A stretch of 64,000 nucleotides of DNA from Alloalcanivorax gelatiniphagus. GTDB lineage: Bacteria > Pseudomonadota > Gammaproteobacteria > Pseudomonadales > Alcanivoracaceae. The position numbers and the translations under genes are program-made. Within the stretch, counting starts at the first letter, position 1. The number at the start of each line of letters is the position of its first letter. The notes under the pieces are model-generated. The model saw only the letters and a program-made list of their open reading frames with translations, was not told the DNA's origin and searched no databases. Shown here in pieces: positions 26,141 through 49,108 of the stretch. The stretch covers positions 62,001 to 126,000 of the forward strand of contig NZ_VCQT01000001.1 in the NCBI RefSeq assembly GCF_005938655.1. Reading direction: 5' to 3'.

Positions 26141-26164
26141 GTCGGCGGTATGCGGTGCATCCAA

Positions 26165-28197: not shown

Positions 28198-28553
28198 CAG
28201 CTTCCCCGGTAGGTGCTGTAGCCGTAGGGGGAGAGCAGCAGCGGCACATGGTAGTGGCGGTCCGCGTCGGCGACGCCGAAACGCACCACCACTTCGTCCA
28301 GGAAGGCCGGCTCCGGCAGGGTGATGCCCTGGCGGCGGAAGTGCTCGCCGGCCTCGAACACCAGTTGATAGCGGCCCGGGCGCAGGGCCTCGCCCTCCAG
28401 CAGCGGCGCCGGGCTGCGGCCGTCGGCATCAGTATTGCATTGGCAAATCAGTGCCGGCGATTCGCCGTCATTCAGCCGCCACAGCTGCAGCGCAAGACCG
28501 GCGGCGGGCTGGCCCGAGGCGGTGTCGAGAACATGCGTGGTAAGACGTCCCAT
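28197..28553 (-). CDS. uraH: 5-hydroxyisourate hydrolase
   Basis: 118 residues, transthyretin-like. N-terminal LTTHVLDTASGQPA, internal RPGRYQLVFEAGE and the obligatory C-terminal YRGS. Hydrolyses 5-hydroxyisourate to OHCU. ATG 28553 fits the family N-terminus. Confidence 0.96.
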   Translation of the reverse strand: MGRLTTHVLDTASGQPAAGLALQLWRLNDGESPALICQCNTDADGRSPAPLLEGEALRPGRYQLVFEAGEHFRRQGITLPEPAFLDEVVVRFGVADADRHYHVPLLLSPYGYSTYRGS

Positions 28554-29579: not shown

Positions 29580-30105
29580 TACCCGGTTATTGTCGCCGCG
29601 CCCCAGCACCCTGGACGAAGACGCCTTCGTGGCCTGCTATGGCGACGTTTATGAACACTCCCCCTGGATTGCCCGGCAGACCCACCGCCAGGGGTTGGGC
29701 GAGGAGGACGACAGGCCGGCGGCCCTGGCGGCGCGGCTGGCGGCGGTGTTCGATGCCGCCGACGAGGAAGCGCAATTGAAAGTGCTGCGCGCGCACCCGG
29801 ACCTGGCCGGCAAGCTGGCGGTGGGCGAGGCGCTCACCGCCGACTCCAGCGCCGAACAGGCCGGCGCCGGTCTGGATCAGTGCACGCCGGAGGAGTTCGA
29901 GCGCTTCCAGGCCCTCAATGAGAAATACAAGGCGCGCTTCCGGTTCCCGTTCATTCTGGCGGTGCGCGGCCTGCATCGCCGCGACATCCTGGCGGCCTTC
30001 GAGGCGCGGGTGAGCAACGATCCGGAAACGGAACGGGCCACGGCGGTGGCCCAGGTCAATCGCATCGCCGCCCTGCGACTGGCGGCCCGTGTCGGGGTGA
30101 ATTAG
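29572..30105 (+). CDS. uraD: OHCU decarboxylase
   Basis: 177 residues. Motifs RAHPDLAGKLA (catalytic His), then FQALNEKYKARFRFPFILAV and LHRRDILAAFEAR. Makes S-allantoin from 2-oxo-4-hydroxy-4-carboxy-5-ureidoimidazoline, between the UraH and PuuE steps. Its TAG overlaps the convergent guaD TAA. Confidence 0.95.
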   Translation: MADTRLLSPRPSTLDEDAFVACYGDVYEHSPWIARQTHRQGLGEEDDRPAALAARLAAVFDAADEEAQLKVLRAHPDLAGKLAVGEALTADSSAEQAGAGLDQCTPEEFERFQALNEKYKARFRFPFILAVRGLHRRDILAAFEARVSNDPETERATAVAQVNRIAALRLAARVGVN

Positions 30106-31370
30106 CCCAGCGGCGGCCAGTCGTCGCCGTCTTCTTCCTGCCCCAGGTCCACCGGGCTGCCGCCGATCCAGGTGCGCAGCGGCCGCTCTTCCAGGTCGCG
30201 GGCCTCCCCGGCCAGCAATGACTCAAACCAGTGATCGGGTCCGCCCCGGCGGTCCGGCAGCGGCAGCTCCACGAAGTCCGCCCGTTTGCCCGGCGCGAAA
30301 CTGCCCGCCCGGTCGTCGCGGCCCAGGCATTCGGCGCCGGCCAGGGTGGCGTGGTAGAGCGCTTCGCGGGCGTTGACGTCGACACCGGCGTCGCGGTGCT
30401 GGGCAAGAAATCGCTGCATCACATGCAACATGCTGTGGCTGGGGCCGGCACCCACGTCCGAGGCCAGCGCATAGCGGATGCCGTGCCGGCGCACCGCCTG
30501 CAGATCCATGCGGCCGCTGTCCAGCGCCTCATTGCTGGACGGGCAATGGGCGATCCAGGCGCCGCGCCGGGCCAGGGTCTCATGCTCCCGGGGGCTGAGA
30601 TGAATGCAGTGGCCGAGCACCGAGCGCGGCCCGAGCAGGCCGGCCCGGTCGTACACGTCGGTGTAGTCCTGGGCTTCCGGAAACGCTTCGCGGATCTCGC
30701 GTACCTCGTTCAGCGATTCCGACAGGTGGGTCTGGATCAGGGCGTTCTCCCGGCGCGCCAGGTCGCCCAGCTCGCGCATCAGTTCGGCGCTGCAATTGAG
30801 GGCGAAGCGCGGCGTCACCGCGTAGTGCTCGTGGCCCAGTTTTTTGAGCAGGGGCGCCACCTGGTCGGCGTTGTCCGGGCTGGCCCGGCACAGTGGTTCC
30901 GGCGCCGCCTTTTCCATGATCGAGTTGCCGAGCACCCAGTCGCCGATGGCTTCACTGGCGGCGATCTCCAGGGCCCGCACATGGGGGCTGGAGTAGGCCA
31001 TGCCCAGGGTGGTGCCGGCGCGGGTGGTGTCGTGGAAGAAGGTCTGGGCGTGGCGGCGGGCGAACAGTTCGTTGTCGAACTCTATTTCCTCCGGCCAGAT
31101 ATGGTTGCGCAGCCATTCCATCAGGTCGCTCTGGAAGCGGCCGCGCACATGGTGCTGCACCCAGTGGATGTGCACGTCGACGAAGCCCGGCACCAGCAGA
31201 CTGTCCAGTTCCAGCATCGCCGAGACTTTCTGCTGGCGAAATTCGCTCATGGGGCCCATGCACAGGATGCGGCCTTCGTGCACCAGCAGGCCGCCGTCAC
31301 GGTAAAACACCCAATGGTCGGCGCCCACCGGGTTAAGCAGGCTGGCTCGGATCAGCAGGGGCTCGCCCAT
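30102..31370 (-). CDS. guaD: guanine deaminase
   Basis: 422 residues. Amidohydrolase-fold guanine deaminase (guanine to xanthine plus ammonia). Metal ligands in VDVHIHWVQH, HLSESLNEV and LGHCIHLSPRE, Asp in SDVGAGPSHSML, all GuaD-like. Divergent from the WrbA-like gene; TGTATACA at 31391-31398 is 21 bp before the start. Confidence 0.94.
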   Translation of the reverse strand: MGEPLLIRASLLNPVGADHWVFYRDGGLLVHEGRILCMGPMSEFRQQKVSAMLELDSLLVPGFVDVHIHWVQHHVRGRFQSDLMEWLRNHIWPEEIEFDNELFARRHAQTFFHDTTRAGTTLGMAYSSPHVRALEIAASEAIGDWVLGNSIMEKAAPEPLCRASPDNADQVAPLLKKLGHEHYAVTPRFALNCSAELMRELGDLARRENALIQTHLSESLNEVREIREAFPEAQDYTDVYDRAGLLGPRSVLGHCIHLSPREHETLARRGAWIAHCPSSNEALDSGRMDLQAVRRHGIRYALASDVGAGPSHSMLHVMQRFLAQHRDAGVDVNAREALYHATLAGAECLGRDDRAGSFAPGKRADFVELPLPDRRGGPDHWFESLLAGEARDLEERPLRTWIGGSPVDLGQEEDGDDWPPLG

Positions 31371-32273: not shown

Positions 32274-33658
32274 TGGTGCTCTCCATCCGGTCTCGCGGCT
32301 CCGTGGGCACCCCAACGCGCGGTGGCCGTTTTTTGTAGGAGCGGCTTCAGCCGCGATAAGCCCTTCTGGTGCGAGAGCGTTGGTTGCCCGCGCATTGGTT
32401 CTCCATCCCGGCCGCCCCGAGACCAGCACCACCCTCCCCGGACACGCCGTGAATACATCCCTGTAGGCTCGCGTTGGCCATCCCTGGCCAACGACGGTCC
32501 GGGGAGGGCGGCACCGGCCTCGCGGCTCCGTGGGCACCCCGACGCGCGGGGGAGGTTTTTTGTAGGAGCGGCTTCAGCCGCGATAAGCGCTTCTGATACG
32601 AGAGCGTTGGTCGTCCGCGCATTGGTTCTCCATCCAGGCCGCCGCGAGACCAGCACCACCCTCCCCGGACACGCCGTGAATACGTCCCTGTAGGCTCGCG
32701 TTGGCCATCCATGGCCAACGACGGCCCGGGGAGGGTGGCACCGGCCTCGCGGCTCCGCGCCTACCCCAACGCGAGGTGCCCGGTTTTGTAGGAGCGGCTT
32801 CAGCCGCGATAAGCGTTTCTGGTGCGATTGCGCTTGGCCGGCCCGCGCGTTTGATCCTCCATCCAGACCGCCACGAGACCGGCACCACCCTCCTCGGACA
32901 CGCCGTGAATACATCCCTGTAGGCTCGCGTTGGCCATCCCTGGCCAACGACGGTCCGGGGAGGGCGGCCCCGGCCTCGCGGCTCCGCGCGTACCCCAACG
33001 CGAGGTGGCCGGTTTTTGTAGGAGCGGCTTCAGCCGCGATAAGCCCTTCTGATACGAGGGCGTTGGTTGCCCGCGCATTGGTTCTCCATCCAGGCCGCCA
33101 CGAGACCAGCACCGCCCTCCCCGGACACGCCGTGAATACGTCCCTGTAGGCTCGCGTTGGCCATCCCTGGCCAACGACGGTCCGGGAAGGGCGGTACCGG
33201 CCTCGCGGCTCCGTGGGCACCCCGGCGCGCGGGGGAGGTTTTTTGTAGGAGCGGCTTCAGCCGCGATAAGCGCTTCTGATACGAGAGCGTTGGTCGTCCG
33301 CGCATTGGTTCTCCATCCAGGCCGCCACGAGACCGGCACCGCCCTCCCCGGACACGCCGTGAATACGTCCCTGTAGGCTCGCGTTGGCCATCCCTGGCCA
33401 ACGACGGTCCGGGGAGGGCGGCCCCGGCCTCGCGGCTCCGCGCGTACCCCAACGCGAGGTGGCCGGTTTTGTAGGAGCGGCTTCAGCCGCGATAAGCGCT
33501 TCTGATACGAGGGCGTTGGTTGCCCGCGCATTGGTTCTCCATCCAGGCCGCCGCGAGGCCGCCACCGCCCTTCCCGGACACGCCGTGAACCCTTCCCTGG
33601 GGGCTCGCGTTGGCCATCCCTGGCCAACGACGGTCCGGGAAGGGCGCCACCCTCGTCG
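32274..33658. repeat. tandem array of six ~227-bp REP-containing units
   Basis: The REP start (TGTAGGAGCGGCTTCAGC) recurs at 32334, 32561, 32787, 33017, 33244 and 33470, i.e. periods of 227, 226, 230, 227 and 226 bp; a truncated unit precedes the first. Each unit carries the REP palindrome, a CCCTCCCCGGAC ... GTCCGGGGAGGG stem pair about 65 bp apart, and an inner GTTGGCC-N6-GGCCAAC hairpin. Long open frames on the minus strand in this array are consequences of the repeat and are not genes. This fills the 1.5-kb gap between the WrbA-like gene and the next binding protein gene. Confidence 0.95.
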
Positions 33659-33709
33659 TGGCTTCTGGGGTGGTTGCACTGTTTTGGGGATGAGGTGGTG
33701 TCGGTGGGT

Positions 33710-33724
33710 GGGCACGAAGGTTGC
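33710..33724 (+). promoter_or_regulatory. sigma-54 type promoter
   Basis: GGGCAC-GAAGG-TTGC, GG-N10-GC, just after the repeat array and upstream of the binding protein gene at 33795. TGCACT-GTTTT-GGGGAT at 33675-33691 is a weak NtrC half-site. Confidence 0.6.
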
Positions 33725-33794: not shown

Positions 33795-34793
33795 ATGCGC
33801 GTGATATCGAAGAGTGGTTTTTCCCGGCGCCTGGGGGCGGCGGTTCTGGCGGTTGTGGGTTTGGCCGGGAGTGGGGGCGCTTGGGCGCTGGATAAGGTGA
33901 CGTTGGGGACCAGTTGGTATGCCCAGGCGGAGCATGGTGGGTTTTATCAGGCTCAGGCCACCGGGATTTATGAGAAGCATGGGTTGGATGTGACGATCAA
34001 GATGGGCGGGCCGCAGGTGAATGGTCTGCAGTTGCTGTTGGCGGGTCAGTACGATTTCACCATGGGTTATCCGTTGCGGAACATCAATGCGGTGGGTGAG
34101 GGGTTGCCGGTGGTGAGTGTGGCGGCGTCTTTTCAGAAGGATCCGCAGGGTTTGATCGCCCATCCGCAGGTGAAGGATCTGCAGTCGGTGGGGGATCGCA
34201 CGGTGCTGATTTCCACGTCGGCCCGTTCTACTTATTGGCCGTGGTTGCAGGCGGAGTATGGGTTCAAGGACAGCCAGGCGAAGCCGTATACGTTCAGTCT
34301 GGGGCCGTTCCTGGCGGATAAGGAGCTGGTGCAGCAGGCCTATGTGAGTTCCGAGCCGTTCGCCGCCGAGAAGGGTGGTGTGAAGCCGAATTTCTTCCTG
34401 TTCGCGGATTACGGTTACCCGCCCTATGGGGCGACGCTGGAGACCCGCCGGGCGTTGGTGGAGGAGAAGCCGGAGATGGTGCGTCGATTCGTGCAGGCGA
34501 CCATGGAGGGTTGGAAGAGCTATCTGGAAGATCCGGCGCCGGGGAATGCGTTGATCCAGAAGGACAATCCGGAGATGACCGATGAGCAGCTGGCCTATGG
34601 TCTGGCCAAGCTCAAGGAGTACGGGATCATCGCCGGCGGTGATGCCGCTGAGAAGGGTCTGGGTTATATGAGCGATGCCCGTTGGGAGAAGACCTTCGAT
34701 TTCATGGTGAAGGCCGGTCTGGTGTCCGACGACGTGGACTATAAAGAGGCCTATACCCTGGAATTCCTGCCCGAGGAGCCGGTGCTGCCGTGA
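33795..34793 (+). CDS. ABC transporter substrate-binding protein (tandem copy 1)
   Basis: 332 residues. Signal peptide of about 31 residues. NMT1-like domain beginning LGTSWYAQAEHGGFYQAQAT, then MGGPQVNGLQLLLAGQ. Ends YTLEFLPEEPVLP, identical to its tandem paralogue at 35006. No permease or ATPase follows, so it must use another importer in the cell (sets at 19259 or 47418) or an unlinked one. Codon use over most of the gene is G/T-ending and differs from the paralogue. Confidence 0.92.
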   Translation: MRVISKSGFSRRLGAAVLAVVGLAGSGGAWALDKVTLGTSWYAQAEHGGFYQAQATGIYEKHGLDVTIKMGGPQVNGLQLLLAGQYDFTMGYPLRNINAVGEGLPVVSVAASFQKDPQGLIAHPQVKDLQSVGDRTVLISTSARSTYWPWLQAEYGFKDSQAKPYTFSLGPFLADKELVQQAYVSSEPFAAEKGGVKPNFFLFADYGYPPYGATLETRRALVEEKPEMVRRFVQATMEGWKSYLEDPAPGNALIQKDNPEMTDEQLAYGLAKLKEYGIIAGGDAAEKGLGYMSDARWEKTFDFMVKAGLVSDDVDYKEAYTLEFLPEEPVLP

Positions 34794-34803
34794 CCCCAGG
34801 GGG

Positions 34804-34831
34804 CTTTGTGCACGGGATGTTGTGCACAAAG
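34804..34831. promoter_or_regulatory. perfect dyad upstream of sigma-54 promoter
   Basis: CTTTGTGCAC-N8-GTGCACAAAG, 10-bp perfect arms, starting 10 bp after the stop of the preceding gene and about 100 bp upstream of the promoter at 34933. Resembles an NtrC enhancer (TGCAC-N7-GTGCA) with one extra base in the spacer; could alternatively be a hairpin at the end of the preceding transcript. Confidence 0.45.
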
Positions 34832-34932
34832 ACGGTTCCGGCGCGCCACCTCGGTGCGTCGGTAACCCCGGCGGGGCCGGGGCGAAACCGGCCAGGCCGC
34901 ATGCCGCAAGGTTTTCGGCGGTTTTGCAAAGC

Positions 34933-34947
34933 TGGCACAGCCCTTGC
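34933..34947 (+). promoter_or_regulatory. sigma-54 consensus promoter
   Basis: TGGCAC-AGCCC-TTGC, a full match to the -24/-12 consensus, 59 bp upstream of the binding protein ATG at 35006. Confidence 0.8.
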
Positions 34948-34980
34948 CTCGTTTTTCCCATCTGAGTCTGGATACCAAAC

Positions 34981-34988
34981 TGTATACA
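34981..34988. promoter_or_regulatory. TGTATACA operator
   Basis: Perfect copy between the sigma-54 promoter and the ATG at 35006, about 22 bp downstream of the predicted +1. Confidence 0.7.
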
Positions 34989-35005
34989 CTTGTGCGGAGC
35001 GAACC

Positions 35006-36022
35006 ATGACAAAGGCAGGGGAACAGCGGTTTAAGAAGGTGTGGACGGGGGTTCGTCGGGGGCTGGCCGGGTTGGCCCTGGGGGCTGGCTTGTGGTCGGC
35101 GGCGGGCGCCGCGGAGCCGGAGAAGGTGGTGTTCGGCACCAACTGGTTCGCCCAGGCGGAGCATGGCGGTTTCTATCAGGCCAAGGCCACCGGCATCTAT
35201 GAGAAGTATGGCCTGGACGTGTCCATCGAGATGGGCGGGCCGCAGGTCAACAACGTGCAGTTGCTGCTGGCCGGCAAGCAGAACATCACCATGGGCTACC
35301 CGATCCGCAACATTAAGTCCCTGGTGCAGGACCTGCCGGTGGTGACCATCGCCGCACCGTTCCAGAGCGATCCCCAGGCGCTGCTGGCGCATCCGCAGGT
35401 GAAATCCCTGGAAGAGATCAAGGGCAAGCCGGTGTATGTGTTCTCCGGCGCCAAGCAGACCTTCTGGCCGTGGCTGGAAGCCAATTACGGCTTCACCGAC
35501 GACATGATCCGGCCCTACACCTTCAGTGTGCAGCCGTTCCTGGCCGACAAGTCCGTGGTGCAGCAGGGCTATGTGACTTCCGAGCCCTTCGCCATGGAGA
35601 AGGGCGGCGTGACGCCGTCGATTTTCCTGTTCGCGGAATACGGTTACCCCCCCTATGCGCAGACCCTGGAAACCACCCGCAAGTGGGTGAAGGAAAAACC
35701 GGAGGTGTTGCGTAAGTTCGTTCAGGCGTCCATGGAAGGCTGGAAGAGCTACTTTGAAAATCCGGCGCCGGGCAATGCCCTGATCAAGAAAGACAACCCG
35801 GAGATGACCGACGAGCAGATCGCGTTCGGCATCGAGAAAATGAAGGAATACGGTCTGGTCGCCGGCGGCGATGCCAAGACCAAAGGCCTCGGCGTGATGA
35901 CCGATGCGCGTTGGAAGGCCACCTTCGACTTCATGGCCCAGGCGGGCATGGTGCCCAAGGACCTGGACTACAAGAAAGCCTACACCTTGGAATTCCTGCC
36001 CGAGGAGCCGGTACTGCCATGA
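35006..36022 (+). CDS. ABC transporter substrate-binding protein (tandem copy 2)
   Basis: 338 residues from ATG 35006 with GGAG seven bases upstream. Signal peptide cleaved near AAGAAE. Closely similar to tandem copy 1 throughout (FAQAEHGGFYQAKATGIYEK, MGGPQVNNVQLLLAGKQ, C-terminal YTLEFLPEEPVLP). Stop overlaps the ATG of the dioxygenase gene (ATGA), tying import to oxidation. Codon use is the ordinary C/G-ending pattern. Confidence 0.93.
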   Translation: MTKAGEQRFKKVWTGVRRGLAGLALGAGLWSAAGAAEPEKVVFGTNWFAQAEHGGFYQAKATGIYEKYGLDVSIEMGGPQVNNVQLLLAGKQNITMGYPIRNIKSLVQDLPVVTIAAPFQSDPQALLAHPQVKSLEEIKGKPVYVFSGAKQTFWPWLEANYGFTDDMIRPYTFSVQPFLADKSVVQQGYVTSEPFAMEKGGVTPSIFLFAEYGYPPYAQTLETTRKWVKEKPEVLRKFVQASMEGWKSYFENPAPGNALIKKDNPEMTDEQIAFGIEKMKEYGLVAGGDAKTKGLGVMTDARWKATFDFMAQAGMVPKDLDYKKAYTLEFLPEEPVLP

Positions 36023-36954
36023 GTGCCAGCCAGGTTCCGGTGATTGATTTCGCGCCCTTCGTGAATGGCGAGGGGCGTCAGCGGGAGGCGGTGGTCGAGG
36101 CCATCGACCGCGCCGCCCGGGAGGTGGGCTTTATGTGCCTGGTGGGTCACGGCCTGCCGGAGCCGCAGTTGCAGGCGCTGTTTCGCGCGCAGCGGGATTT
36201 TTTCGCGCTGCCGGAAGCGGTCAAGGCGGAGGCCGCCTTCGCCTACCAAGACACCGATGCCAACACCGGCTATGTGGCGGTGGGCAAGGAGCGGCTGGAT
36301 GTGAAACGGGCGCCGGATTTGAAGGAAAGTTTTCAGATTCGGGAGCCCGGCCGCTACGGCCAGGTGAACCGTTGGCCGTCCGGCCAGGACGGATTCCGGG
36401 CCACGGCGGAGGATTTTTTCGCGGCGGTCTCGGACCTGTCCATGAAAGTGCTGGAGGCGTTCGAGCTGGGGCTGGGCACCGAGCCCGGTTACTTCCGGGA
36501 GCGCCACCGCACCCACAGCCAGATTCTGCGGCTGCTGCATTACCCGCCGTTGCCGCCGGAGTTTCAGGCGCAACGCGGCCAGGCCCGGGCCGGCGGCCAC
36601 ACCGACTACGGCAGCGTGACGCTGCTGTTCCAGGACGATGTCGGCGGTCTGGAAGTGCGTGACGCCGACGGTAAGTGGGTGCCGGTGGACCCGGTGCCCG
36701 GCGGGGTGGTGATCAACACCGGCGACATCATGGCCCGCTGGACCAACGATGTGTACCGCTCGACCTTGCACCGGGTGCGCCTGCCCGAGCACGCCGGCGG
36801 CCGCGCCCGCTATTCAGTGGCGTTTTTCAACGATCCGGACAACGACGCGGAGATCCGTGTGCTGGAGCAGTGTGTCAGCGACGACAACGCCTGTCGCTAC
36901 CCGCCGATCCTCACCGGCGACTATCTGGTGAACCGGCGCGCCGCGTCCTATTGA
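36019..36954 (+). CDS. isopenicillin N synthase-like 2OG/Fe(II) dioxygenase (2 of 3)
   Basis: 311 residues. Fe ligands H194, D196 (GGHTDYGS), H251 (TLHRV); 2OG-binding R264/S266 (RYS). Starts VPVIDFAPFVNGEG. Co-translated with the binding protein upstream. Paralogous to the enzymes at 22677 and 39526; substrate unknown. Confidence 0.9.
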   Translation: MSASQVPVIDFAPFVNGEGRQREAVVEAIDRAAREVGFMCLVGHGLPEPQLQALFRAQRDFFALPEAVKAEAAFAYQDTDANTGYVAVGKERLDVKRAPDLKESFQIREPGRYGQVNRWPSGQDGFRATAEDFFAAVSDLSMKVLEAFELGLGTEPGYFRERHRTHSQILRLLHYPPLPPEFQAQRGQARAGGHTDYGSVTLLFQDDVGGLEVRDADGKWVPVDPVPGGVVINTGDIMARWTNDVYRSTLHRVRLPEHAGGRARYSVAFFNDPDNDAEIRVLEQCVSDDNACRYPPILTGDYLVNRRAASY

Positions 36955-36959
36955 TTTCC

Positions 36960-36990
36960 GGCGCGGGTCCGAATGGCGGAGGCCCGCGCC
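36960..36990. repeat. intra-operon hairpin
   Basis: GGCGCGGG (36960-36967) and CCCGCGCC (36983-36990), 15-nt loop, just after the dioxygenase stop, with no U-run. It sits in the 131-bp gap before the Rieske gene and may protect or attenuate the mRNA. Confidence 0.4.
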
Positions 36991-37085
36991 CTGTTCAACC
37001 TTCCGCCAGCAAGAGAGGAAAAGCCGGCCTTAAAGAGCGCGAACAGGCTCTCGGCGGGGGCTGCCTCGTCCATAGGAGATGAGCC

Positions 37086-38135
37086 ATGCTAGTAACCCAA
37101 CAACCCGTCCTGCGCCGCTTTTGGTACCCCGTGATTCCCATGGCGCGACTGAACGACGGCCCGAAACCCTTCCGTTTGCTCAATCAGGATCTGGTGCTGT
37201 GGCTGGACAGCCAGGGCAAGCCCCAGGTGGCCGAGGACCGCTGTGCCCACCGCAGCGCCAAGCTGTCCCTGGGCTGGGTGGACGGCGACAACATCGTCTG
37301 CCCGTACCACGGCTGGAATTACGACGGCACCGGTGCCTGCAAGAAAATACCGCAAACCCCGGATCGTCCCGCCAGCCGCGTCAAGGTGCCGGCGTTCCAC
37401 GCCGATGAGCGCTACGGTTATGTGTGGGTGTGCCTGGGCGACCCGGTCACCGGTATTCCCGAAATGCCGGAAGCCAAGGAGCCGGGCTACCGCATGTTCC
37501 ATCAGTTCCATGAGGTGTGGCGCACCGCCGGCCTGCGGCTGATGGAGAACTCCTTCGACAACGCCCATTTCAGCTTCGTGCACCGGGAGAGCTTCGGCCA
37601 GTACGACAAGCCGATTCCCGCCGACCTGAACATCGAGGAGGGCGAATACGGTTTCCGCTTTGAAACCAAGGCCCCGGTGAACAATCCGGAATCCCAGAAA
37701 AAACTGCTGAAGATGGACAGCGACACCACCGTGCGCCACATGACCAGCAACTGGTACATGCCGTTCGGCCGCCGCCTCAACATCAGCTACCCCAATGGCC
37801 TGGTGCATTCCATCGTCACCTACGCCACCCCCATCGACGACGAGCATTCGATGATCTGCCAGTGGGCGTTCCGCAGCGATAGCGAAGAAGACGCCCCGGA
37901 AGCGGAAATCATCGCCTTCGATCGCCAGGTCACCGAGGAGGACAAGCGGGTTCTGGAAAGCACCGATTACGACGTGCCCCTGGACACCGCCAGCGGTGAA
38001 GAGAAGCACATGCCGTCGGACCAGCCCGGCATGGTGATGCGCAAGATGATGAAGGCGCTGCTGGAACGCTTCGGTGAGAGCGAGGCACGCAGCGACCACG
38101 CGCGCATTCCGGTGAAACAGGAGAAGGCCTCGTGA
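37086..38135 (+). CDS. Rieske-type oxygenase component (1 of 2)
   Basis: 349 residues. Rieske cluster ligands C53, H55, C72, H75 (DRCAHR, VCPYHGW). Mononuclear iron region LMENSFDNAHFSFVH with D158, H161, H166. Size and layout match the VanA/HpxD/NdmA group of short, single-component-alpha oxygenases, two of which (HpxD, NdmA) act on purines. No reductase gene is in the window. GTGA overlap with the amidohydrolase downstream suggests the product passes to it. Confidence 0.9.
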   Translation: MLVTQQPVLRRFWYPVIPMARLNDGPKPFRLLNQDLVLWLDSQGKPQVAEDRCAHRSAKLSLGWVDGDNIVCPYHGWNYDGTGACKKIPQTPDRPASRVKVPAFHADERYGYVWVCLGDPVTGIPEMPEAKEPGYRMFHQFHEVWRTAGLRLMENSFDNAHFSFVHRESFGQYDKPIPADLNIEEGEYGFRFETKAPVNNPESQKKLLKMDSDTTVRHMTSNWYMPFGRRLNISYPNGLVHSIVTYATPIDDEHSMICQWAFRSDSEEDAPEAEIIAFDRQVTEEDKRVLESTDYDVPLDTASGEEKHMPSDQPGMVMRKMMKALLERFGESEARSDHARIPVKQEKAS

Positions 38136-39493
38136 GCGACCTGCTGATCCAGGGCGCGGACGCGGTGATGACCGGCGCGGCGGGCGATGCCGCCCGCGCC
38201 GGCGCCGTGGACATCCGTGTCCGTGACGGCGTGATCAAGGAAATGGCCGCCGGGTTGACCCCGGTGGCCGGCGAGGAGGTGCTGGATGCCCGCGGCTGCG
38301 TGGTCTATCCGGGCTGGGTGAATACCCACCACCATCTGTTCCAGAGCGTGCTCAAGGCGGTGCCGGAAGGCATCAACGAGCCGCTGTTCGGCTGGCTGGG
38401 CGCGGTGCCCTATCCGCGCCTCACCCGCATCCGCGACCGCCACCTGGAGGTGGCGGCGGAAGTGGGGCTGGCGGAACTGCTGCTGTCCGGCACCAGCACC
38501 TGCGCCGATCACCATTACATCTATTACGGCGGCCTCGACAGCGAAATGGGCGACGTGCTGTTCGAGGTGGCGGAGCGGCTTGGCATGCGCTTTACCCTTT
38601 GCCGGGGCGGCGCCACCGAACAGGGCCGCCATCCGGGTTATCCCAATGACCTGAAGTCGGAAACCCTGGACGCCTACGTGGCCGATGTGGAGCGCCTGGC
38701 CGCCCGTTACCACCAGAGCGGCCCGCGTGCCATGCGCCAGGTGGTGATGGCGCCCACCACGCCCACCTTCTCGGTGGACCCGGCGACCCTGCGCGAGCTG
38801 GCCCGGGCCGGTCGCGCCCAGGGGCTGCGTCTGCACAGCCATTTGTCGGAGACCTTCAACTACGTGGAGTACTGCCGCGACGTGCACAACATGACGCCGG
38901 TGGAATTCTGCGGCGAGAACGAATGGTTGGGCGACGACGTCTGGTTCGCGCACATGGTGCACGTGGCCGACTCCGAACTGCCGATCCTGGCGGAAACCGG
39001 CACCGGCATCGCCCATTGTCCGCAAAGCAATTGCCGGCTGGGCAGCGGCATTGCCCGGGTGCCGGAAATGGCCGCCCGGGGCATTCCCATTTCCCTGGCG
39101 GTGGATGGCGCCGCCTCCAACGAGGCCGCCGACATGATCCAGGAGGCCCACACCACCTGGATGATCCACCGTGCCCTGGGGGGCGCCGACGCGGTCACCG
39201 TGGAAGACGTGATCCACTGGGGCACCTCCGGTGGCGCCCGCATTCTCGGCCTGGACCAGGTCGGCGAACTGGCCCCGGGGCGGGCCGCCGATCTGGCGGT
39301 CTACGATCTCAACCAGCCGCGCTATTTCGGCATGCACGACCCGGCTATCGCGCCGGTGGCCGGTGGTGGCAGCGCCACGGTGCGCCATCTGCTGGTGGAT
39401 GGCCAGGCGCGGGTGCGCGATGGCGCCATCCCGGGTCTGGACCTGGCCGACCTGCGTGCCCGCGCCGCCGAGGTGGTGGCGGAACTTCATTGA
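38132..39493 (+). CDS. amidohydrolase, 8-oxoguanine deaminase/AtzB-like
   Basis: 453 residues, GTG start overlapping the Rieske stop. HxH in VNTHHHLFQS, His in HSHLSETFN and HMVHVADSE, Asp in AVDGAASNEAADM. Related to, but clearly diverged from, the 8-oxoguanine deaminase at 24745 (the ELFDWL...PVW stretch is replaced by LFGWLGAVPYPRLT). Predicted deaminase or chlorohydrolase-type enzyme on an N-heterocycle. Confidence 0.85.
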   Translation: MSDLLIQGADAVMTGAAGDAARAGAVDIRVRDGVIKEMAAGLTPVAGEEVLDARGCVVYPGWVNTHHHLFQSVLKAVPEGINEPLFGWLGAVPYPRLTRIRDRHLEVAAEVGLAELLLSGTSTCADHHYIYYGGLDSEMGDVLFEVAERLGMRFTLCRGGATEQGRHPGYPNDLKSETLDAYVADVERLAARYHQSGPRAMRQVVMAPTTPTFSVDPATLRELARAGRAQGLRLHSHLSETFNYVEYCRDVHNMTPVEFCGENEWLGDDVWFAHMVHVADSELPILAETGTGIAHCPQSNCRLGSGIARVPEMAARGIPISLAVDGAASNEAADMIQEAHTTWMIHRALGGADAVTVEDVIHWGTSGGARILGLDQVGELAPGRAADLAVYDLNQPRYFGMHDPAIAPVAGGGSATVRHLLVDGQARVRDGAIPGLDLADLRARAAEVVAELH

Positions 39494-39525
39494 AGGACGG
39501 GGCCAGCGCCCCGGGGGAATACCCG

Positions 39526-40509
39526 ATGGAAACATTTCAACAATCCAAGGCGCGGCTCACCGACGCCGGTGCCATTCCGGTGATTGACTTCGGACCTTTT
39601 CTGCACGGCGATGCGGCGGACCGCAAGGCGGTGGCCCGCGCCATGCGCCAGGCCAGCGCCGACTGGGGTTTTTTCTACCTTTCCAGCCACGGCGTGCCGG
39701 CGTCGTTGCTGGACCGTTCCTTCCAGACTTCCGAACGGTTCTTCGCCCGTCCCTACGAAGAGAAAATGGGCGTGGCCTGGCAAAACGCCAGCAGCAACCG
39801 GGGCTATGTGGCGGTGCGCCGGGAGCGGCTTGATGCCAGCAAACCCGGCGACCTGAAAGAAGCTTTCAACGCCGGGCCGGAACCCGGGGCGCTCAGCGAG
39901 GCGGAACGGCCCTACCGGGAAAATCGCTGGCCGGACCAGCCGGCGGATTTCCGCGCCACCGTGATGGCATTGATGGACGGCTGCGTGGCCGCGTCCAACC
40001 GGGTGCTGGAAGCCTTCGCGCTGGCCCTGGATCTGCCCGACGGTTTCTTCGTCGATGCCCATGACCAACTGCACCACACCCTGCGCCTGCTGCACTACCC
40101 GCCGCTGCCCCGGGACTACACCCCCCAGGCCGGCGAAAAGCGGGCCGGCGCGCACACCGATTACGGCAGCATCACGCTGCTGTTCCAGCATGGCGTGGCC
40201 GGGCTGGAAGTGCGCACCCGCGACGGTGAGTGGATCACCGCGCCGCCGATTCCCGGCACCGTGGTGGTCAACACCGGTGACCTGATGCAGCGCTGGACCA
40301 ACGACGTGTTCTGCTCCACGCCGCACCGGGTGTCGCCGTTCGTCAGCGGCGATTCGCCGGGCCGTTATTCCATTGCTTTCTTTTGTCATCCGAACCCGGA
40401 CGCGGAGATCCGCTGCATCGAAAGTTGCGCGGACGAAAACAACCCGCCGCGCTATCCGTCGATCCTGGCCGGTGAGCATCTGATGGCCAAACTGAACGCG
40501 ACCTACTGA
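39526..40509 (+). CDS. isopenicillin N synthase-like 2OG/Fe(II) dioxygenase (3 of 3)
   Basis: 327 residues from ATG 39526 with GGGGGA upstream; a much longer open frame upstream is a shadow of the amidohydrolase. Fe ligands H210, D212 (GAHTDYGS), H267 (TPHRV); R280/S282. Starts IPVIDFGPFLHGD. Stop and the MFS start share one base. Confidence 0.9.
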   Translation: METFQQSKARLTDAGAIPVIDFGPFLHGDAADRKAVARAMRQASADWGFFYLSSHGVPASLLDRSFQTSERFFARPYEEKMGVAWQNASSNRGYVAVRRERLDASKPGDLKEAFNAGPEPGALSEAERPYRENRWPDQPADFRATVMALMDGCVAASNRVLEAFALALDLPDGFFVDAHDQLHHTLRLLHYPPLPRDYTPQAGEKRAGAHTDYGSITLLFQHGVAGLEVRTRDGEWITAPPIPGTVVVNTGDLMQRWTNDVFCSTPHRVSPFVSGDSPGRYSIAFFCHPNPDAEIRCIESCADENNPPRYPSILAGEHLMAKLNATY

Positions 40510-41729
40510 TGGCCGCCAGTGACCTGTCGGCGGCGCCGGCGGTGGAGGTGGCGGCGCCACCGCCGGTGACCGTGGGGTTGGGCTGGATCGCGGTGATGAT
40601 CGCCCTGGCCGGCCTCAACCTGCGGCCGCTGCTCACTTCCTTGGGGGTGAGTCTGGAAGCGGTGCGCATGGACCTGGGGCTGAGCAGCACCGCCGCCGGC
40701 CTGCTCGCCGCCGTGCCCACTTTCTGCATGGGCGCGGTGGCGTTGGTGGGCGGCTGGTTGATCGGCCGCCTTGGCAGCGGCCAGGGGCTGCGCGTGGCCT
40801 TGCTGCTGGTGGCGGCGGGCTGCCTGGGCCGCTGGGTGGGTTTCAGCCCCACGGTAATGTTCGCCGCCACCCTGGTGGGCGGGCTCGGCATCGCCTGCGG
40901 TCAGGTGCTGATCCCGGTGGTGATCAAACAGTATTTCCCGGCCCGGGCGGCCTTGATGATGGGCCTGTTCACCACCGCCATGAACCTGGGCGCGGCCTTG
41001 GGCGCCGCCGCCACGCCGGCGCTGATGGACGCCGCCGGCGGCCACTGGCAGCTGGCCCTGGGCATCTGGGCGTTGCCGGCGCTGGTGGCGGCGCTGCTGT
41101 GGCCGGTGAACCTGGCGCGGCCCCGGGGCGACAACGCCCGGGCTTTGCCCTGGGCGGATGCCCGCGCCTGGCGCATGGCGCTGTTTCTGGGCACCGGCTC
41201 GATTGCCTATATGTCGTTGCTGGCCTGGCTGGTGCCGTTCTATGTGGCCCAGGGCCACAGCCAGGCCCAGGGCGCGGCGCTGCTTACCGTATTCACTGGC
41301 GCGCAAATCGCCGCCGCTTTGCTGGTACCGCCGCTGGCCGGCGTCTGGCGGGACCGCCGCCCGGCCATGGCGATCTGCCTGCTGCTGTTGATGGTGGGCA
41401 TCGCCGGGCTGTGGTGGGCGCCGGCCTCCGGCGGCGTGCCCTGGGCGGTGATCGCGGGCATCGGCCTGGGCGGTTCCTTTCCGCTGGCGCTGACCCTGCC
41501 GCTGGATTACGCCGCCACGCCCACCGAGGCCGGCCGTCTGTCGGCGCTGGTGCAGGGCCTGGCCATGCTGATGGGCGCGCTGGGGCCGCTGCTGTTCGGT
41601 GCCTTGCGCGACGGCTTCGGGTTTGCCGCGGCCATGCTGTTTCTGTTGTCGGCGGTGGGGGTGTCGTTCCTGCTGGGACTGACCTTCCGGCCGCCACCGC
41701 TTCACCCCGCCGAGGAGGACTCTCCATGA
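40509..41729 (+). CDS. MFS transporter, cyanate/nitroimidazole permease (CynX/NimT) type
   Basis: 406 residues, 12 hydrophobic segments. Start region with LAGLNLRPLLTSLGVSLEAV typical of the CynX group. Located between two oxygenase genes, so it probably moves the substrate or an intermediate. Overlaps the next gene by ATGA. Confidence 0.88.
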   Translation: MAASDLSAAPAVEVAAPPPVTVGLGWIAVMIALAGLNLRPLLTSLGVSLEAVRMDLGLSSTAAGLLAAVPTFCMGAVALVGGWLIGRLGSGQGLRVALLLVAAGCLGRWVGFSPTVMFAATLVGGLGIACGQVLIPVVIKQYFPARAALMMGLFTTAMNLGAALGAAATPALMDAAGGHWQLALGIWALPALVAALLWPVNLARPRGDNARALPWADARAWRMALFLGTGSIAYMSLLAWLVPFYVAQGHSQAQGAALLTVFTGAQIAAALLVPPLAGVWRDRRPAMAICLLLLMVGIAGLWWAPASGGVPWAVIAGIGLGGSFPLALTLPLDYAATPTEAGRLSALVQGLAMLMGALGPLLFGALRDGFGFAAAMLFLLSAVGVSFLLGLTFRPPPLHPAEEDSP

Positions 41730-42709
41730 ACGTCATGGACCATCCCGTGTTTCGCCGCTTCTGGTATCCGGTGATGCCGCTTGATCTGTTGCGCGAAGGC
41801 CCGCGCGGTTTCGTGCTGCTGGGCCAGCCGCTGGTGCTGTTTATCGATGACCAGGGCGTGCCGGCGGCGCTGGAGGATCGCTGCTGCCATCGCACCGCGC
41901 AGCTGTCCCTGGGCGAGGTGTGCCAGGGGCGGGTGGCCTGTCCGTATCACGGCTGGCAGTACGACCGCAGCGGCCAGTGCGTGCATGTGCCGCAGATGCC
42001 GGACCGCGACCCGGGGCCCAAGCGGCGGGTGCGCGCTTTCCATTGTGACGTCCGTTATGGCTATGCCTGGGTGGCGTTGGAAGACCCGATCTTCGAGATT
42101 CCCGCCATTCCGGAGGCCGCCGAGCCGGACTTCGAGCTGATCCAGGAATTCTACGAAGAATGGAAGGTGGCCGGGCTGCGGGTGATGGAGAACGAACTGG
42201 ACATGGCCCACCCCAGCTATGTGCACCTGGGCACCTTCGGCAGCCCGGAGCATCTGGTGGCCAAGGACGCGGAAATCCGCGAGTTCGACGGCGGCTTCCA
42301 TTACACCGGCCGGCTCGGCGTGACCCAGGCCCACCACGCCCAGCAGGACGGTAACGAGCGTTTTCTGGATTGCTCCTGGTTCGCGCCCTTCGTGTGCCGG
42401 CTGCGTATCGACTATGCGGACGGTGGGCCCGCCCATGTGATCGTCAACTGCCAGGTGCCCATCGACCACGGACGCTCCCAGGTGGTGCAGTTCTGTCTGC
42501 AGCAGGACCATGGTGAGGGCTTCGACCGGGAGGCGCTGTTGGCCTTCGATCGCAAGGTCACCCTGGAGGACAAGCGGGTGCTGGAAAGCACCGACCCGGA
42601 TATGCCCCTGGACCCCCGTGGCGAGAAGCACATGGAATCGGATAAGCCGGGCCTGGTGATCCGCCGCATGATGGATCGGTTGATCGCCGACCACGAAGGG
42701 GTGGCCTGA
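41726..42709 (+). CDS. Rieske-type oxygenase component (2 of 2)
   Basis: 327 residues, ATG 41726 with AGGAGG upstream. Rieske ligands C53, H55, C72, H75 (DRCCHR, ACPYHGW); mononuclear iron region VMENELDMAHPSYVH with D159, H162, H167. Paralogue of the enzyme at 37086 but divergent in the C-terminal catalytic domain. Last gene of the 35.0-42.7 kb operon. Confidence 0.9.
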   Translation: MNVMDHPVFRRFWYPVMPLDLLREGPRGFVLLGQPLVLFIDDQGVPAALEDRCCHRTAQLSLGEVCQGRVACPYHGWQYDRSGQCVHVPQMPDRDPGPKRRVRAFHCDVRYGYAWVALEDPIFEIPAIPEAAEPDFELIQEFYEEWKVAGLRVMENELDMAHPSYVHLGTFGSPEHLVAKDAEIREFDGGFHYTGRLGVTQAHHAQQDGNERFLDCSWFAPFVCRLRIDYADGGPAHVIVNCQVPIDHGRSQVVQFCLQQDHGEGFDREALLAFDRKVTLEDKRVLESTDPDMPLDPRGEKHMESDKPGLVIRRMMDRLIADHEGVA

Positions 42710-42754
42710 GTCCTGCTCCACCCCGAGACGCTTCCCGGCCGGCGAATGGCACCC

Positions 42755-42822
42755 GTAGGAGCGACTTCAGTCGCGATCACCGACTCGCTTTCCATCGTCA
42801 TCGCGACTGAAGTCGCTCCTAC
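42755..42822. repeat. inverted REP pair (REPIN-like)
   Basis: GTAGGAGCGACTTCAGTC...GAT at 42755-42777 and its exact reverse complement at 42800-42822, 23-bp arms, 22-nt loop. The GCGACTTCAGTCGC core is a variant of the GCGGCTTCAGCCGC core in the array at 32.3 kb. Confidence 0.9.
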
Positions 42823-42854
42823 CCGTGGACTAAGGGTCAACCTCCTGGCTGCTT

Positions 42855-44558: not shown

Positions 44559-45356
44559 ATGACGGACCGTTTCTCCGACCCCGATTCCGCCCTGCATTCG
44601 CTGGGCACCCGCCCCGGCAGCCAGTGGGGCGTCAATGGCGAACTCGCCGATCTCAGCCGTCCGGCGCCCGCGCCCCGGCTGGTGACCCTGTCGGCGCAGC
44701 CGAAAACGTTACGCCTGGATCTCAATCGTCTGGCGGTGATCGTGGTGGATATGCAGAACGACTTCTGCACCCCCGGTGGCTGGCTGGACCATATCGGCGT
44801 GGACACCACGCCGGCGCGACGCCCGGTGGCGCCGCTGCAAACACTGTTGCCCGCGCTGCGCGCCGCCGCCGTGCCGGTGGTGTGGGTGAACTGGGGCAAC
44901 CGCAAGGATTTGATGAACATCTCGCCGGCCCTGCGCCATGTCTACAACGGCAGCGGCCAGGACGTGGGCCTGGGCGACCCGGTGCCCGCCTCCGGCGCGC
45001 CGGTGCTGGAGAAGGACAGCTGGGGCGCCGCCATCGTCGACGAGCTGACCGTGGCCGACGGCGATGTGCGCGTGGACAAGTTCCGCATGAGCGGCTTCTG
45101 GGACACGCCCCTGGATTCCATCCTTCGCAATCTCGGTGTCAGCACCTGCCTGTTCGCCGGCGTCAACGCCGACCAGTGCGTGCTGCACACCCTGGCGGAC
45201 GCCAACTTCCTCGGCTACGACACAGTGCTGCTGGAAGACTGCACCGCCACCACTTCCCCGGCGTTCTGCTGGGACGCCACGCTCTACAACGCGCGGCAGA
45301 TCTTCGGGTTTACCGCCTGTTCCCCGGATCTGATCTCCGCCATGGAGGCTCTTTGA
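44559..45356 (+). CDS. isochorismatase-fold cysteine amidohydrolase
   Basis: 265 residues. Catalytic triad D64 (VVDMQNDF), K174 (VDKFRMSGF), C207 (NADQCVL). Family members hydrolyse small amides such as biuret, N-carbamoylsarcosine and ureidoacrylate. Which one applies is not decidable here, but an ammonia- or urea-releasing role fits the cluster. Confidence 0.87.
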   Translation: MTDRFSDPDSALHSLGTRPGSQWGVNGELADLSRPAPAPRLVTLSAQPKTLRLDLNRLAVIVVDMQNDFCTPGGWLDHIGVDTTPARRPVAPLQTLLPALRAAAVPVVWVNWGNRKDLMNISPALRHVYNGSGQDVGLGDPVPASGAPVLEKDSWGAAIVDELTVADGDVRVDKFRMSGFWDTPLDSILRNLGVSTCLFAGVNADQCVLHTLADANFLGYDTVLLEDCTATTSPAFCWDATLYNARQIFGFTACSPDLISAMEAL

Positions 45357-45781
45357 TGTTGCCGTTCTTTAAACGTCCCGACCAGTTCGAGGCCTTCCGC
45401 ATCAAGGCGGGGGAAAGCAACCGCCTGGTGGTGATGTTCGATTCCATCAAGGAAAAACTGGATTTCATCGCCTGCGTGGAAATTTTCGACGAGGGCGGCC
45501 TGACGCCACCCAACACCCACAAGGCCGCCGACGAATTGTTCTTCGTGCTGGAAGGCGAGGGCCGCGCCCGCTGTGACGACAACTGGGTGGAGCTGCGCAA
45601 GGGCGACGCCATGGTGGTGCCCGCCGGCGCCGAGCACGTGGTGGAAAACACCGGCCCGGGCCGCCTCTACACCCTGACCGTGATGGTGCCCGACGAGCAC
45701 TTCGCCGAACTGATCCGCAACGGCGTACCCGACCAGCTGGATCAGGAAGACCTGCGGGTATTGCAGGGAGTAGGGGCATGA
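45356..45781 (+). CDS. cupin-domain protein
   Basis: 141 residues, single cupin: motif 1 PPNTHKAADELFFVLEGEG, motif 2 GDAMVVPAGAEHVVENTG. ATG shares one base with the upstream stop and the stop overlaps the next ATG. Metal-dependent enzyme or binding protein; specific role unknown. Confidence 0.87.
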   Translation: MLPFFKRPDQFEAFRIKAGESNRLVVMFDSIKEKLDFIACVEIFDEGGLTPPNTHKAADELFFVLEGEGRARCDDNWVELRKGDAMVVPAGAEHVVENTGPGRLYTLTVMVPDEHFAELIRNGVPDQLDQEDLRVLQGVGA

Positions 45782-47421
45782 CGTCACGGGTCCCGATGCC
45801 GGAAACGGTTTCCATGCACACCCGCGACGGGGTGCGGCTGGACGCCGATCTCTATGTGCCGGAGGGCGAGGGCCCGTTCCCGGCCCTGCTGATGCGTCAG
45901 CCCTACGGCCGCCGCATCGCTTCCACGGTGACCTACGCCCACCCCTCCTGGTACGCCGAACAGGGCTACCTGGTGGTGATTCAGGATGTGCGCGGGCGGG
46001 GCACCTCCGAGGGAAGCTTCGAACCCTTTATCAACGAACAGCAGGACGGCGAGGACACCCTGACCTGGCTGGCGGACCTGCCGCTGTGCAACGGCCGCAT
46101 CGGCATGTACGGCTTTTCCTATCAGGGCGTCACCCAGCTGTTCGCCGCCGCCAGCGGCCACCCGGCGCTGCAAGCCATCGCGCCGGCCATGACCGGGTTC
46201 CGCCTGGAGCGGGACTGGGCCTACGAGGGCGGCGCCTTCCGCCTGCAGAACAGCCTGTCCTGGGCGGCGCAGCTGGGCGCCGAAAGCGACCGCCGCGACG
46301 GCAACCATGACCGCTTCGCGCAACGCTACCGGCTGGGCCACGGGCCCGGCGCCGATGAACTGATCGACCCGGCGTCGCCGGCGGTCCGTGAGCGTCTGGA
46401 GGGCACCTTCTACGGCGACTGGTTGGATCAGCCCCTGGACAGCGACTACTGGCGGCAACATTCGGTGGCCGGTTGTCTGCCGGTGGTGGACCTGCCGGCG
46501 CTGCACGTGGGCGGCTGGTTCGACAGCTTTCTCACCGGCACCCTGGCCACCTTCGATTACCTGCGCGCCGGCGCCGGCCATCAGCGGCTGGTGATCGGCC
46601 CCTGGACCCATCTGCCCTGGACTCCGGCGGTGGGCCAGGCATGGCTGGGCGAGGCCGCCCAGTCCCACATCGATGCCCTGCAACTGCGCTGGTTCGATCA
46701 TTACCTCAAGGGCCAGGACACCGGCGTGGAAGACGACCCGCTGGTGGAGCTCTATGACCTGCGCGCCAACCGCTGGCGCGCCTACGCGGATTACCCGGCG
46801 GCTCCCGGCAGCCGGCTGTCGCTGGCCAGCGACGGCAGCGCCGGCTTCAACATCCAAGGCGGCCGTCTCGGCGCCGCCCCGGATGTCGAAGCCACCGTGG
46901 ACACCCTGATCCACGACCCCTGGCGGCCGGTGCCGGCGGTGGGTGGCCACCTGGCGCCGTCCCCCGGCATGCATGATCGCACCGTGGTGGACGCGCGTCC
47001 GGACGTGCTCACCTACACCGGCGCGCCGCTGGCCGCCGATCATCAACTGGCCGGCCCGGTGCGGGTCACTCTGAACGCCGCTGCCGACGCGGACAGCTTC
47101 GATCTGTGCGCGGTGCTGTCGGTGGTGGACGCCGATGGCCGCGCCCGCAACCTCACCCAGGGCTATGCCCGCGCCCGGGGCAACGGTCCGGTGGCGGTGG
47201 ATCTGCGCGGCACCTGCGCCTTGCTGCGTGCCGGCGAACGGCTGCGCCTGAGCGTCAGCGGCGCCTGCTATCCGGCCTACGCCCTTAACGACGGCAGCGG
47301 TCGCGCCCCCGGCGCGATCCGCGCCGGCGACCTTCGCATTATCACCCTCAGCGTGAACACCCAGGGGTCCTGGATTGAGCTGCCCGCTCAATCCCTGGCC
47401 GTAAAGGAGGAAAACTCGTGA
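45778..47421 (+). CDS. CocE/NonD family hydrolase (X-Pro dipeptidyl-peptidase S15 type)
   Basis: 547 residues. Alpha/beta-hydrolase with nucleophile in GMYGFSYQG, acid in GGWFDSF and His in GPWTHLPW, followed by a jelly-roll C-terminal domain. Family acts on esters and amides (cocaine esterase, acyl-amino esters). Embedded in the porin-ABC operon. Confidence 0.9.
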   Translation: MTSRVPMPETVSMHTRDGVRLDADLYVPEGEGPFPALLMRQPYGRRIASTVTYAHPSWYAEQGYLVVIQDVRGRGTSEGSFEPFINEQQDGEDTLTWLADLPLCNGRIGMYGFSYQGVTQLFAAASGHPALQAIAPAMTGFRLERDWAYEGGAFRLQNSLSWAAQLGAESDRRDGNHDRFAQRYRLGHGPGADELIDPASPAVRERLEGTFYGDWLDQPLDSDYWRQHSVAGCLPVVDLPALHVGGWFDSFLTGTLATFDYLRAGAGHQRLVIGPWTHLPWTPAVGQAWLGEAAQSHIDALQLRWFDHYLKGQDTGVEDDPLVELYDLRANRWRAYADYPAAPGSRLSLASDGSAGFNIQGGRLGAAPDVEATVDTLIHDPWRPVPAVGGHLAPSPGMHDRTVVDARPDVLTYTGAPLAADHQLAGPVRVTLNAAADADSFDLCAVLSVVDADGRARNLTQGYARARGNGPVAVDLRGTCALLRAGERLRLSVSGACYPAYALNDGSGRAPGAIRAGDLRIITLSVNTQGSWIELPAQSLAVKEENS

Positions 47422-49093: not shown

Positions 49094-49108
49094 GTGGAGA
49101 GTAAAACA

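Follow-up and report, generated by a model that had tools for sequence, protein, structure and literature searches.

Introduction

Among Rieske oxygenases, NdmA and NdmB act on methylxanthines, and the substrate of the GxtA and SxtT enzymes has a reduced purine-like core. A riboswitch-controlled gene set containing enzymes of this general type was described by Yu and Breaker (2020, PMC7373994): according to the accessible text of that paper, RF03054 RNAs bind xanthine (KD ~3.7 µM) and urate (~25 µM) and switch OFF associated genes comprising pcbC, NMT1, tauA, hcaE, PDR, PRK12393, tsx and tadA. The riboswitch-linked dioxygenases are there called highly similar to the hpxD/hpxE products, their precise functions being stated as not established, and genes for the degradation of oxidised purines are reported as unseen in the regulon. 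The present analysis concerns an eight-gene operon of comparable content at positions 33795-42709 of a 64,000-nucleotide stretch of the Alloalcanivorax gelatiniphagus genome (contig NZ_VCQT01000001.1, 62,001 to 126,000). The whole of that stretch is referred to below as the window, all coordinates being counted from its first nucleotide, and related loci and genomes carry our own running numbers prefixed L and G.

The original prediction, made from the sequence of the window, was that no described pathway contains this set of genes. That view stands insofar as functions are not established, but the gene types themselves are already in print as riboswitch-controlled (PMC7373994, accessible text), and the operon would be a variant of oxygenase-based purine oxidation. 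No reaction has been assigned to it in the open-access literature searched (subscription papers, including the original Klebsiella paper, lay outside that scope), and none of the terms xanthine, guanine and HpxD was found in a term search of the accessible part of a 2025 review of Rieske oxygenases.

The reading preferred here, to which we assign a probability of about 0.6, is that the operon supplies the oxygenases at the heart of a gene island for purine-base catabolism, in which molybdenum-free oxidation of guanine-type purines would feed urate breakdown. A purine substrate is supported by the linkage of orthologous genes to the xanthine riboswitch in relatives, by the urate-degradation genes that neighbour the operon, and by the closest solved relatives of its enzymes, all of which bear out the initial suggestion that purine or methylpurine substrates were plausible. 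The substrates and reactions of the operon, its transporter pairing and the oligomeric state of its oxygenases, as set out below, are those that we infer.

Organisation of the operon

Searches of Pfam, NCBIfam and the PDB confirmed the presence of all eight genes on the plus strand of the window, the genome of which (4.2 Mb) is rated 100% complete. The operon opens with SBP1 (33795-34793), a periplasmic NMT1/THI5-type binding protein (Pfam NMT1, 102 bits) for which the nearest solved structure is the ABC-type extracellular solute-binding protein 4nmy, followed by 3ix1, an N-formyl-4-amino-5-aminomethyl-2-methylpyrimidine binding protein; its paralogue SBP2 (35006-36022), also recognised by Pfam NMT1, is 67% identical. 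There follow DIOX1 (36019-36954), a 2-oxoglutarate (2OG)/Fe(II) oxygenase of the thymine-7-hydroxylase/IPNS kind; RO1 (37086-38135), a Rieske oxygenase alpha subunit with Pfam Rieske and VanA_C domains; AmH1 (38132-39493), a purine-deaminase-like amidohydrolase of the PRK12393 type; DIOX2 (39526-40509), a thymine-7-hydroxylase-like 2OG/Fe(II) oxygenase 46% identical to DIOX1; a CynX/NimT-like MFS permease (40509-41729); and RO2 (41726-42709), a second Rieske alpha subunit 46% identical to RO1. The paired binding proteins, 2OG dioxygenases and Rieske oxygenases originally described were thus all confirmed in place, as was the MFS gene, although the CynX label given to it is a loose one (TIGR00896, 281 bits against a cut-off of 406). 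Translational coupling had been claimed for the operon as a whole: start and stop codons do overlap at four of the seven junctions (SBP2/DIOX1, RO1/AmH1, DIOX2/CynX and CynX/RO2), whereas the coordinates of the remaining three leave gaps of 212, 131 and 32 nt.

Conservation of the core and linkage to the xanthine riboswitch

Related loci were collected by scanning genomes with both Rieske proteins of the window, and one relative, as queries, the best 80 of at least 540 confirmed relatives being kept; neighbourhoods were called from stop-to-stop open reading frames at fixed identity cut-offs, distances being approximate and loci at contig ends counted as found. The nearest of the loci collected, L024 from Alloalcanivorax xenomutans, has a Rieske protein 81% identical to that of the window and preserves the order SBP1-SBP2-RO1-AmH1-CynX-RO2 at 67-81% identity, a collinearity which argues that the arrangement is not due to chance. 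DIOX1 and DIOX2 had no match in this 21-kb locus, the remainder of that genome not having been searched for them, and a thymine-hydroxylase-like 2OG oxygenase was found near just six of the 80 loci. The 2OG genes, initially counted as part of the pathway set, are therefore present but accessory, and were rejected as core genes in favour of a core consisting of binding protein, Rieske oxygenase and PRK12393 amidohydrolase.

Within the fetched flanks of the 80 loci, an SBP1-like binding protein was located near 40, an ABC permease near 39, an ABC ATPase near 37, an AmH1 homologue near 27, a creatininase near 18 and a PDR reductase near 11, while a paralogous Rieske pair was present in 18. At least one gene of urate or allantoin degradation lay near 12 loci, and two or more near nine; equivalent partner searches on 40 control stretches of 20 kb, drawn from ten of the same genomes with lineage not matched, gave no match (0/40; Fisher p = 0.006 for the urate genes). 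Pfam backs the labels for hydroxyisourate hydrolase, allantoicase, ureidoglycolate lyase and the xanthine/uracil permease family. The label 'HpxO-like' was assigned from sequence, Pfam giving FAD_binding_3 only, and an HpxO model scan of 370 genomes returned one protein over the cut-off, from the window's own order. In five cyanobacterial loci (L059, L066, L069, L076 and L090), from genomes with no XdhB over the cut-off, the RO1 orthologue adjoins an OHCU decarboxylase gene; an HpxO-like gene is present in four of the five and a hydroxyisourate hydrolase in three.

Within the window's own class the system is sparsely distributed: five of 274 genomes were matched at E 1e-30, and identities of at least 47% were confined to the window genome and G107. 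In the latter, the RO1 orthologue stands beside an NMT1 ABC system, a xanthine/uracil-permease family protein and a CDA-fold deaminase, a weakly TadA-like protein that occupies the deaminase place. A separate RO1 relative, at 48% identity, is carried by a 1.24 Mb Variovorax plasmid (NZ_CP070344.1, 964193-965263); among the 15 plasmid records listed, of 673, the other 14 contain relatives of at most 35% identity.

Of the 51 genomes tested, 26 contained RF03054 (the NMT1 or xanthine riboswitch) over the cut-off, with 33 matches in all. In 24 of these 26 genomes a match lies upstream of the RO1 orthologue on the same strand, with AmH1 further downstream in 21 of the 24, and the orthologous riboswitch-linked core comprises an NMT1 binding protein, the Rieske oxygenase, an ABC transporter, a PDR reductase and often a PRK12393 amidohydrolase. 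L079 and L093 are examples of riboswitch operons with a PDR reductase. L092 and L094 are the exceptions to this linkage; one further match, in the genome of L085, fell beyond the limits of the fetched locus, and in six loci a total of seven matches had the opposite orientation. The genomes of L024 and L025 (Salinisphaera) gave no RF03054 match. A riboswitch inside the window was also considered, and was discarded when the RF03054 search gave no match over the cut-off. In L092, two back-to-back xanthine riboswitches (17959-18145) have no classified gene downstream within the fetched locus, an arrangement resembling one from Hydrogenophaga in the accessible text of PMC7373994. The presence of urate genes beside riboswitch-free members of the family is an observation complementary to the regulon as presented in that text.

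The Rieske oxygenases

An alignment of RO1 was prepared from 116 of 122 Rieske rows; the six omitted were minus-strand matches, and the six genomes affected were each retained through another row (L021-L023, L154, L155 and L157). Residues C53, H55, C72, H75, D158, H161 and H166 were invariant in all 116, and D286 in 115 with a single gap. Of these, two Cys and two His presumably bind the Rieske cluster, and two His and one Asp the iron site, so that RO1 carries the full ligand set of a Rieske non-haem iron oxygenase. The Pfam VanA_C scores of the pair were 71 and 68 bits, and the closest PDB sequences were SxtDIOX/SxtT, GxtA and NdmA/NdmB. A predicted model of RO1 (22 sequences; pLDDT 89.5) likewise retrieved NdmA/NdmB and SxtT-type structures first, at 27-32% identity, with dicamba and guaiacol demethylases following at 19-21%. 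The firm grouping with O-demethylases that had been named in advance as counting against a purine role was thus not observed.

In a quick maximum-likelihood tree, some long branches of which were flagged by the program, the window pair and its orthologues formed a clade of their own (101 rows), apart both from NdmA/NdmB and from a group belonging to the G405 order, which we take to be the Xanthomonadales; RO2 and its L024 counterpart nested within a branch of the RO1 family that is otherwise cyanobacterial. Two positions were compared, namely those differing between wild-type NdmA and the crystallised QL mutant. At the first, Asn282 of NdmA, all 101 rows of the window clade have Asp; at the second, Phe286, 77 of them have Thr, 15 Val, five Leu and four Ile, so that the clade matches the selectivity pair of neither NdmA (Asn282/Phe286) nor NdmB (Gln/Leu). 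The clade Asp (Asp279) could accept the N1-H and 2-NH2 of guanine, and by analogy with NdmA/NdmB, RO1 and RO2 perhaps form a mixed hexamer.

By way of contrast, the G405-order rows (seven rows from six genes, L142 and L156 being one gene) carry the NdmA pair Asn/Phe, and possibly constitute a second family of purine Rieske oxygenases. In L156 (5880-13876) the Rieske gene of this group lies near PuuD, OHCU decarboxylase and an allantoicase-like gene, and in L157 (2065-8713) near an allantoicase-like gene.

Amidohydrolases and 2OG oxygenases

AmH1 passed the PRK12393 model NF009059 (713 bits; cut-off 543) but fell short of the 8-oxoguanine deaminase model NF006055 (437 bits; cut-off 532), and the 8-oxoguanine-deaminase label first attached to it was consequently abandoned. 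The nearest solved structure is 2paj. The active-site residues of AmH1, Gln71 and Tyr129 among them, are conserved in 28 of 28 rows (the window and 27 relatives); the counterparts of these two presumably bind O6 and N7 of the purine in 8-oxoguanine deaminase. On sequence grounds AmH1 may act on guanine or another base lacking the O8 contact. Two further amidohydrolases are coded for upstream on the minus strand. AmH_a (24745-26160) passes as an 8-oxoguanine deaminase (NF006055, 662 bits; matches to 3hpa and 7ww2), although the alignment places Ser where those two structures have Cys; AmH_b (30102-31370) is guanine-deaminase-like, its NF006679 score of 332 bits being slightly short of the cut-off of 351.

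The best solved match of DIOX1 was the thymine dioxygenase 5c3p (E 1.9e-57), with the HTD..H..R motif aligned, and DIOX2 also matched this thymine-7-hydroxylase best, with iron and 2OG motifs aligned; we take HxD...H to be the iron motif and Arg the 2OG motif in both. The enzyme 5c3p is fungal and has a pyrimidine substrate.

Urate pathway and xanthine dehydrogenase

The operon is flanked upstream by a urate-degradation cluster, and downstream by a transporter/hydrolase operon. The cluster consists of PuuD, a membrane urate oxidase (27004-28197, minus; Pfam Urate_ox_N, 445 bits), a 5-hydroxyisourate hydrolase of the transthyretin family (28197-28553, minus; Pfam Transthyretin/HIUase, 124 bits), the allantoinase PuuE (28662-29579, plus; TIGR03212, 516 bits, cut-off 425) and OHCU decarboxylase (29572-30105, plus; TIGR03164, 198 bits, cut-off 96), which together account for the conversion of urate via allantoin to allantoate. 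The whole window genome codes for five MoCoBD proteins, none of which reached a xanthine dehydrogenase cut-off (one, at L015, was clipped at the locus end); one of the five scores as the aldehyde oxidase PaoC. Thus the genome combines a urate pathway with no recognisable urate-making molybdenum enzyme.

When the test was extended to 48 related genomes in addition to that of the window, XdhB was found over the cut-off in 28 of the 49, the Salinisphaera genome (L025) being scored as without on the basis of a 744-bit match (cut-off 849.5). The A. xenomutans genome (L024) gave no XdhB match at E 1e-40. Where urate or allantoin genes accompany the related locus, the genome has no XdhB over the cut-off in eight of 12 cases.

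Proposed route of purine oxidation

Under the preferred reading, the NMT1-type binding proteins and the ABC transporter coded for at 47418-49093 would import a purine base, which RO1 and RO2 would oxidise, most likely by placing oxygen on the ring of a guanine-type oxopurine, at C8 or C2. AmH1, AmH_a and AmH_b would remove the exocyclic amino group to give xanthine and/or urate, for onward degradation by PuuD, hydroxyisourate hydrolase, OHCU decarboxylase and PuuE, while DIOX1 and DIOX2 would serve as accessories that widen the substrate range. In favour of ring hydroxylation are the absence of xanthine dehydrogenase beside a urate pathway and the presence of an 8-oxoguanine deaminase in the island. 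The order of hydroxylation followed by deamination, originally suggested on the basis of the overlap of the Rieske and amidohydrolase genes, is still plausible, although the 4-bp RO1/AmH1 overlap is itself uninformative on order.

A more specific proposal is that the Asp279-clade Rieske enzyme hydroxylates guanine at C8, the resultant free 8-oxoguanine being converted to urate by 8-oxoguanine deaminase and degraded by the products of the neighbouring urate genes. We regard this as tentative and on balance unlikely; were it correct, 8-oxoguanine would rank as an ordinary intermediate of catabolism rather than solely a damage product, and the corresponding deamination of a related oxidised base would fall to the PRK12393 enzyme linked to the riboswitch.

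Several observations weigh against the molybdenum-free oxidation of guanine-type purines. Thr209 of AmH1, present in all 28 rows, replaces the Cys of the 8-oxoguanine deaminases 3hpa and 7ww2; as this Cys, situated after beta-strand 4, presumably contacts O8, the substitution makes 8-oxoguanine a less likely substrate for AmH1 itself. XdhB was over the cut-off in each of the 19 riboswitch genomes tested, compared with nine of the 30 without a riboswitch, a contrast confounded by lineage; the system cannot simply substitute for xanthine dehydrogenase in those 19, and the notion that it has replaced that enzyme everywhere was rejected on these counts. The window genome as a whole gave no RF03054 match, nor any close reductase (best match 40 bits, the query being the PDR-type reductase of L052 rather than NdmD), and the 190-bit reductase match in the Alloalcanivorax genome adjoins a different Rieske gene. 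Finally, 24 of the 80 related loci have none of the tested partners nearby.

Alternative interpretations

The presence of XdhB in all the tested riboswitch genomes would suit a route ending at xanthine, such as one in which the Rieske and 2OG enzymes demethylate methylated guanine, hypoxanthine or adenine from RNA turnover and the deaminases then yield xanthine. The ranking of the N-demethylases NdmA/NdmB among the closest solved relatives of the Rieske pair is consistent with such a route, as are the resemblance of the 2OG pair to thymine-7-hydroxylase, which oxidises a methyl group, and the occurrence of several paralogous oxygenases, which would suit several methyl positions. The NdmA QL positions are nevertheless Asp and predominantly Thr in the window clade, the collinear A. 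xenomutans locus lacks the 2OG genes, and direct evidence of a methylated substrate is lacking; demethylation is accordingly a credible alternative, though one that we consider somewhat unlikely.

The likeness of the 2OG enzymes to thymine dioxygenase, taken with that of the NMT1 binding proteins to pyrimidine-precursor binding proteins, could also indicate catabolism of pyrimidines or other N-heterocycles (thymine, hydroxymethylpyrimidine, hydantoin or triazine), as could the downstream creatininase-family protein and the isochorismatase-like protein, which resembles RutB and biuret hydrolase but scores below both cut-offs. In relatives, however, the core is accompanied by the xanthine riboswitch and by urate genes, and the riboswitch RNA is described in the accessible text of PMC7373994 as unresponsive to the thiamin-related ligands tested, which renders this interpretation improbable. 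Aromatic acid O-demethylation, to which the VanA_C match of the Rieske pair might point, is scarcely credible in a purine gene context and when NdmA/NdmB and SxtT/GxtA outrank the dicamba and guaiacol demethylases; since characterised O-demethylases were not the closest enzymes in the PDB searches, this assignment was rejected. Oxidation of guanine-type purines by the Rieske core remains the preferred reading.

Neighbouring genes

Upstream of the urate cluster, and on the minus strand, lie a third 2OG/Fe(II) oxygenase, DIOX_a (22677-23663; Pfam DIOX_N and 2OG-FeII_Oxy), and a second uptake operon coding for an ABC permease, ATPase and NMT1 binding protein (19259-21837; Pfam BPD_transp_1, ABC_tran and NMT1). 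The downstream operon (44559-52285, plus strand) codes for isochorismatase-like, cupin, CocE-like, ABC, FAD oxidase, creatininase and binding proteins. Family searches identified the isochorismatase-like hydrolase and cupin at 44559-45781, and the creatininase-family hydrolase at 50461-52285 together with SBP_c, a third binding protein ~50% identical to SBP1. The ABC ATPase and permease (47418-49093; Pfam BPD_transp_1 for the permease) are of the kind that adjoins SBP1 homologues elsewhere, and are likely to be the partner of SBP1, SBP2 and SBP_c. In Alphaproteobacteria and in Paenibacillus (L028, L041 and L103), parts of this operon occur together with the Rieske gene.

Immediately 5' of SBP1, at 32287-33722, a ~227-bp repeat is present in six tandem copies, the unit containing a REP-like palindrome with more than 100 partial copies in the genome. 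The 3' flank of the operon (42748-42829) contains a strong inverted repeat built around a REP-like core, for which the Rfam match was far below the family cut-off. A tmRNA gene occupies 60720-61077 on the minus strand.

Comparison with known systems

The window combines a riboswitch-type core with an adjoining urate pathway in a genome devoid of recognisable xanthine dehydrogenase, and a single deletion and growth test would consequently be informative. Confirmation would establish a molybdenum-independent aerobic route of purine catabolism and perhaps a physiological role for 8-oxoguanine deaminases.

Comparison with the 8-oxoguanine deaminases (PRK08203) shows that AmH1 shares their HHHxxQ and Tyr motifs while scoring below their cut-off and having Thr209 in place of Cys. 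For DIOX1 and DIOX2, the likeness is to thymine-7-hydroxylase (5c3p), the top solved match of both and one with iron and 2OG motifs in common. The Rieske pair resembles NdmA/NdmB, which are among its closest solved sequences, are likewise paired paralogous subunits and have purines as substrates; it differs in its identity of 27-30% over the model, in having Asp/Thr rather than Asn282/Phe286, and in its separate clade in the quick tree. Klebsiella HpxD/HpxE similarly provide a Rieske-type oxygenase serving the oxidation of a purine, hypoxanthine, and their linkage to the urate pathway is found here also, with PuuD, hydroxyisourate hydrolase, PuuE and OHCU decarboxylase adjoining the operon; the window operon differs in having two Rieske genes and an amidohydrolase, and no reductase. 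A PDR gene is equally absent in comparison with the RF03054 regulon, which includes one in the accessible text of PMC7373994, and the window genome further departs from that regulon in having no RF03054 and in the adjoining urate-degradation genes. What the operon and the regulon, as there described, have in common are NMT1/tauA binding proteins, pcbC-type 2OG oxygenases, Rieske-type dioxygenases and the PRK12393 deaminase.

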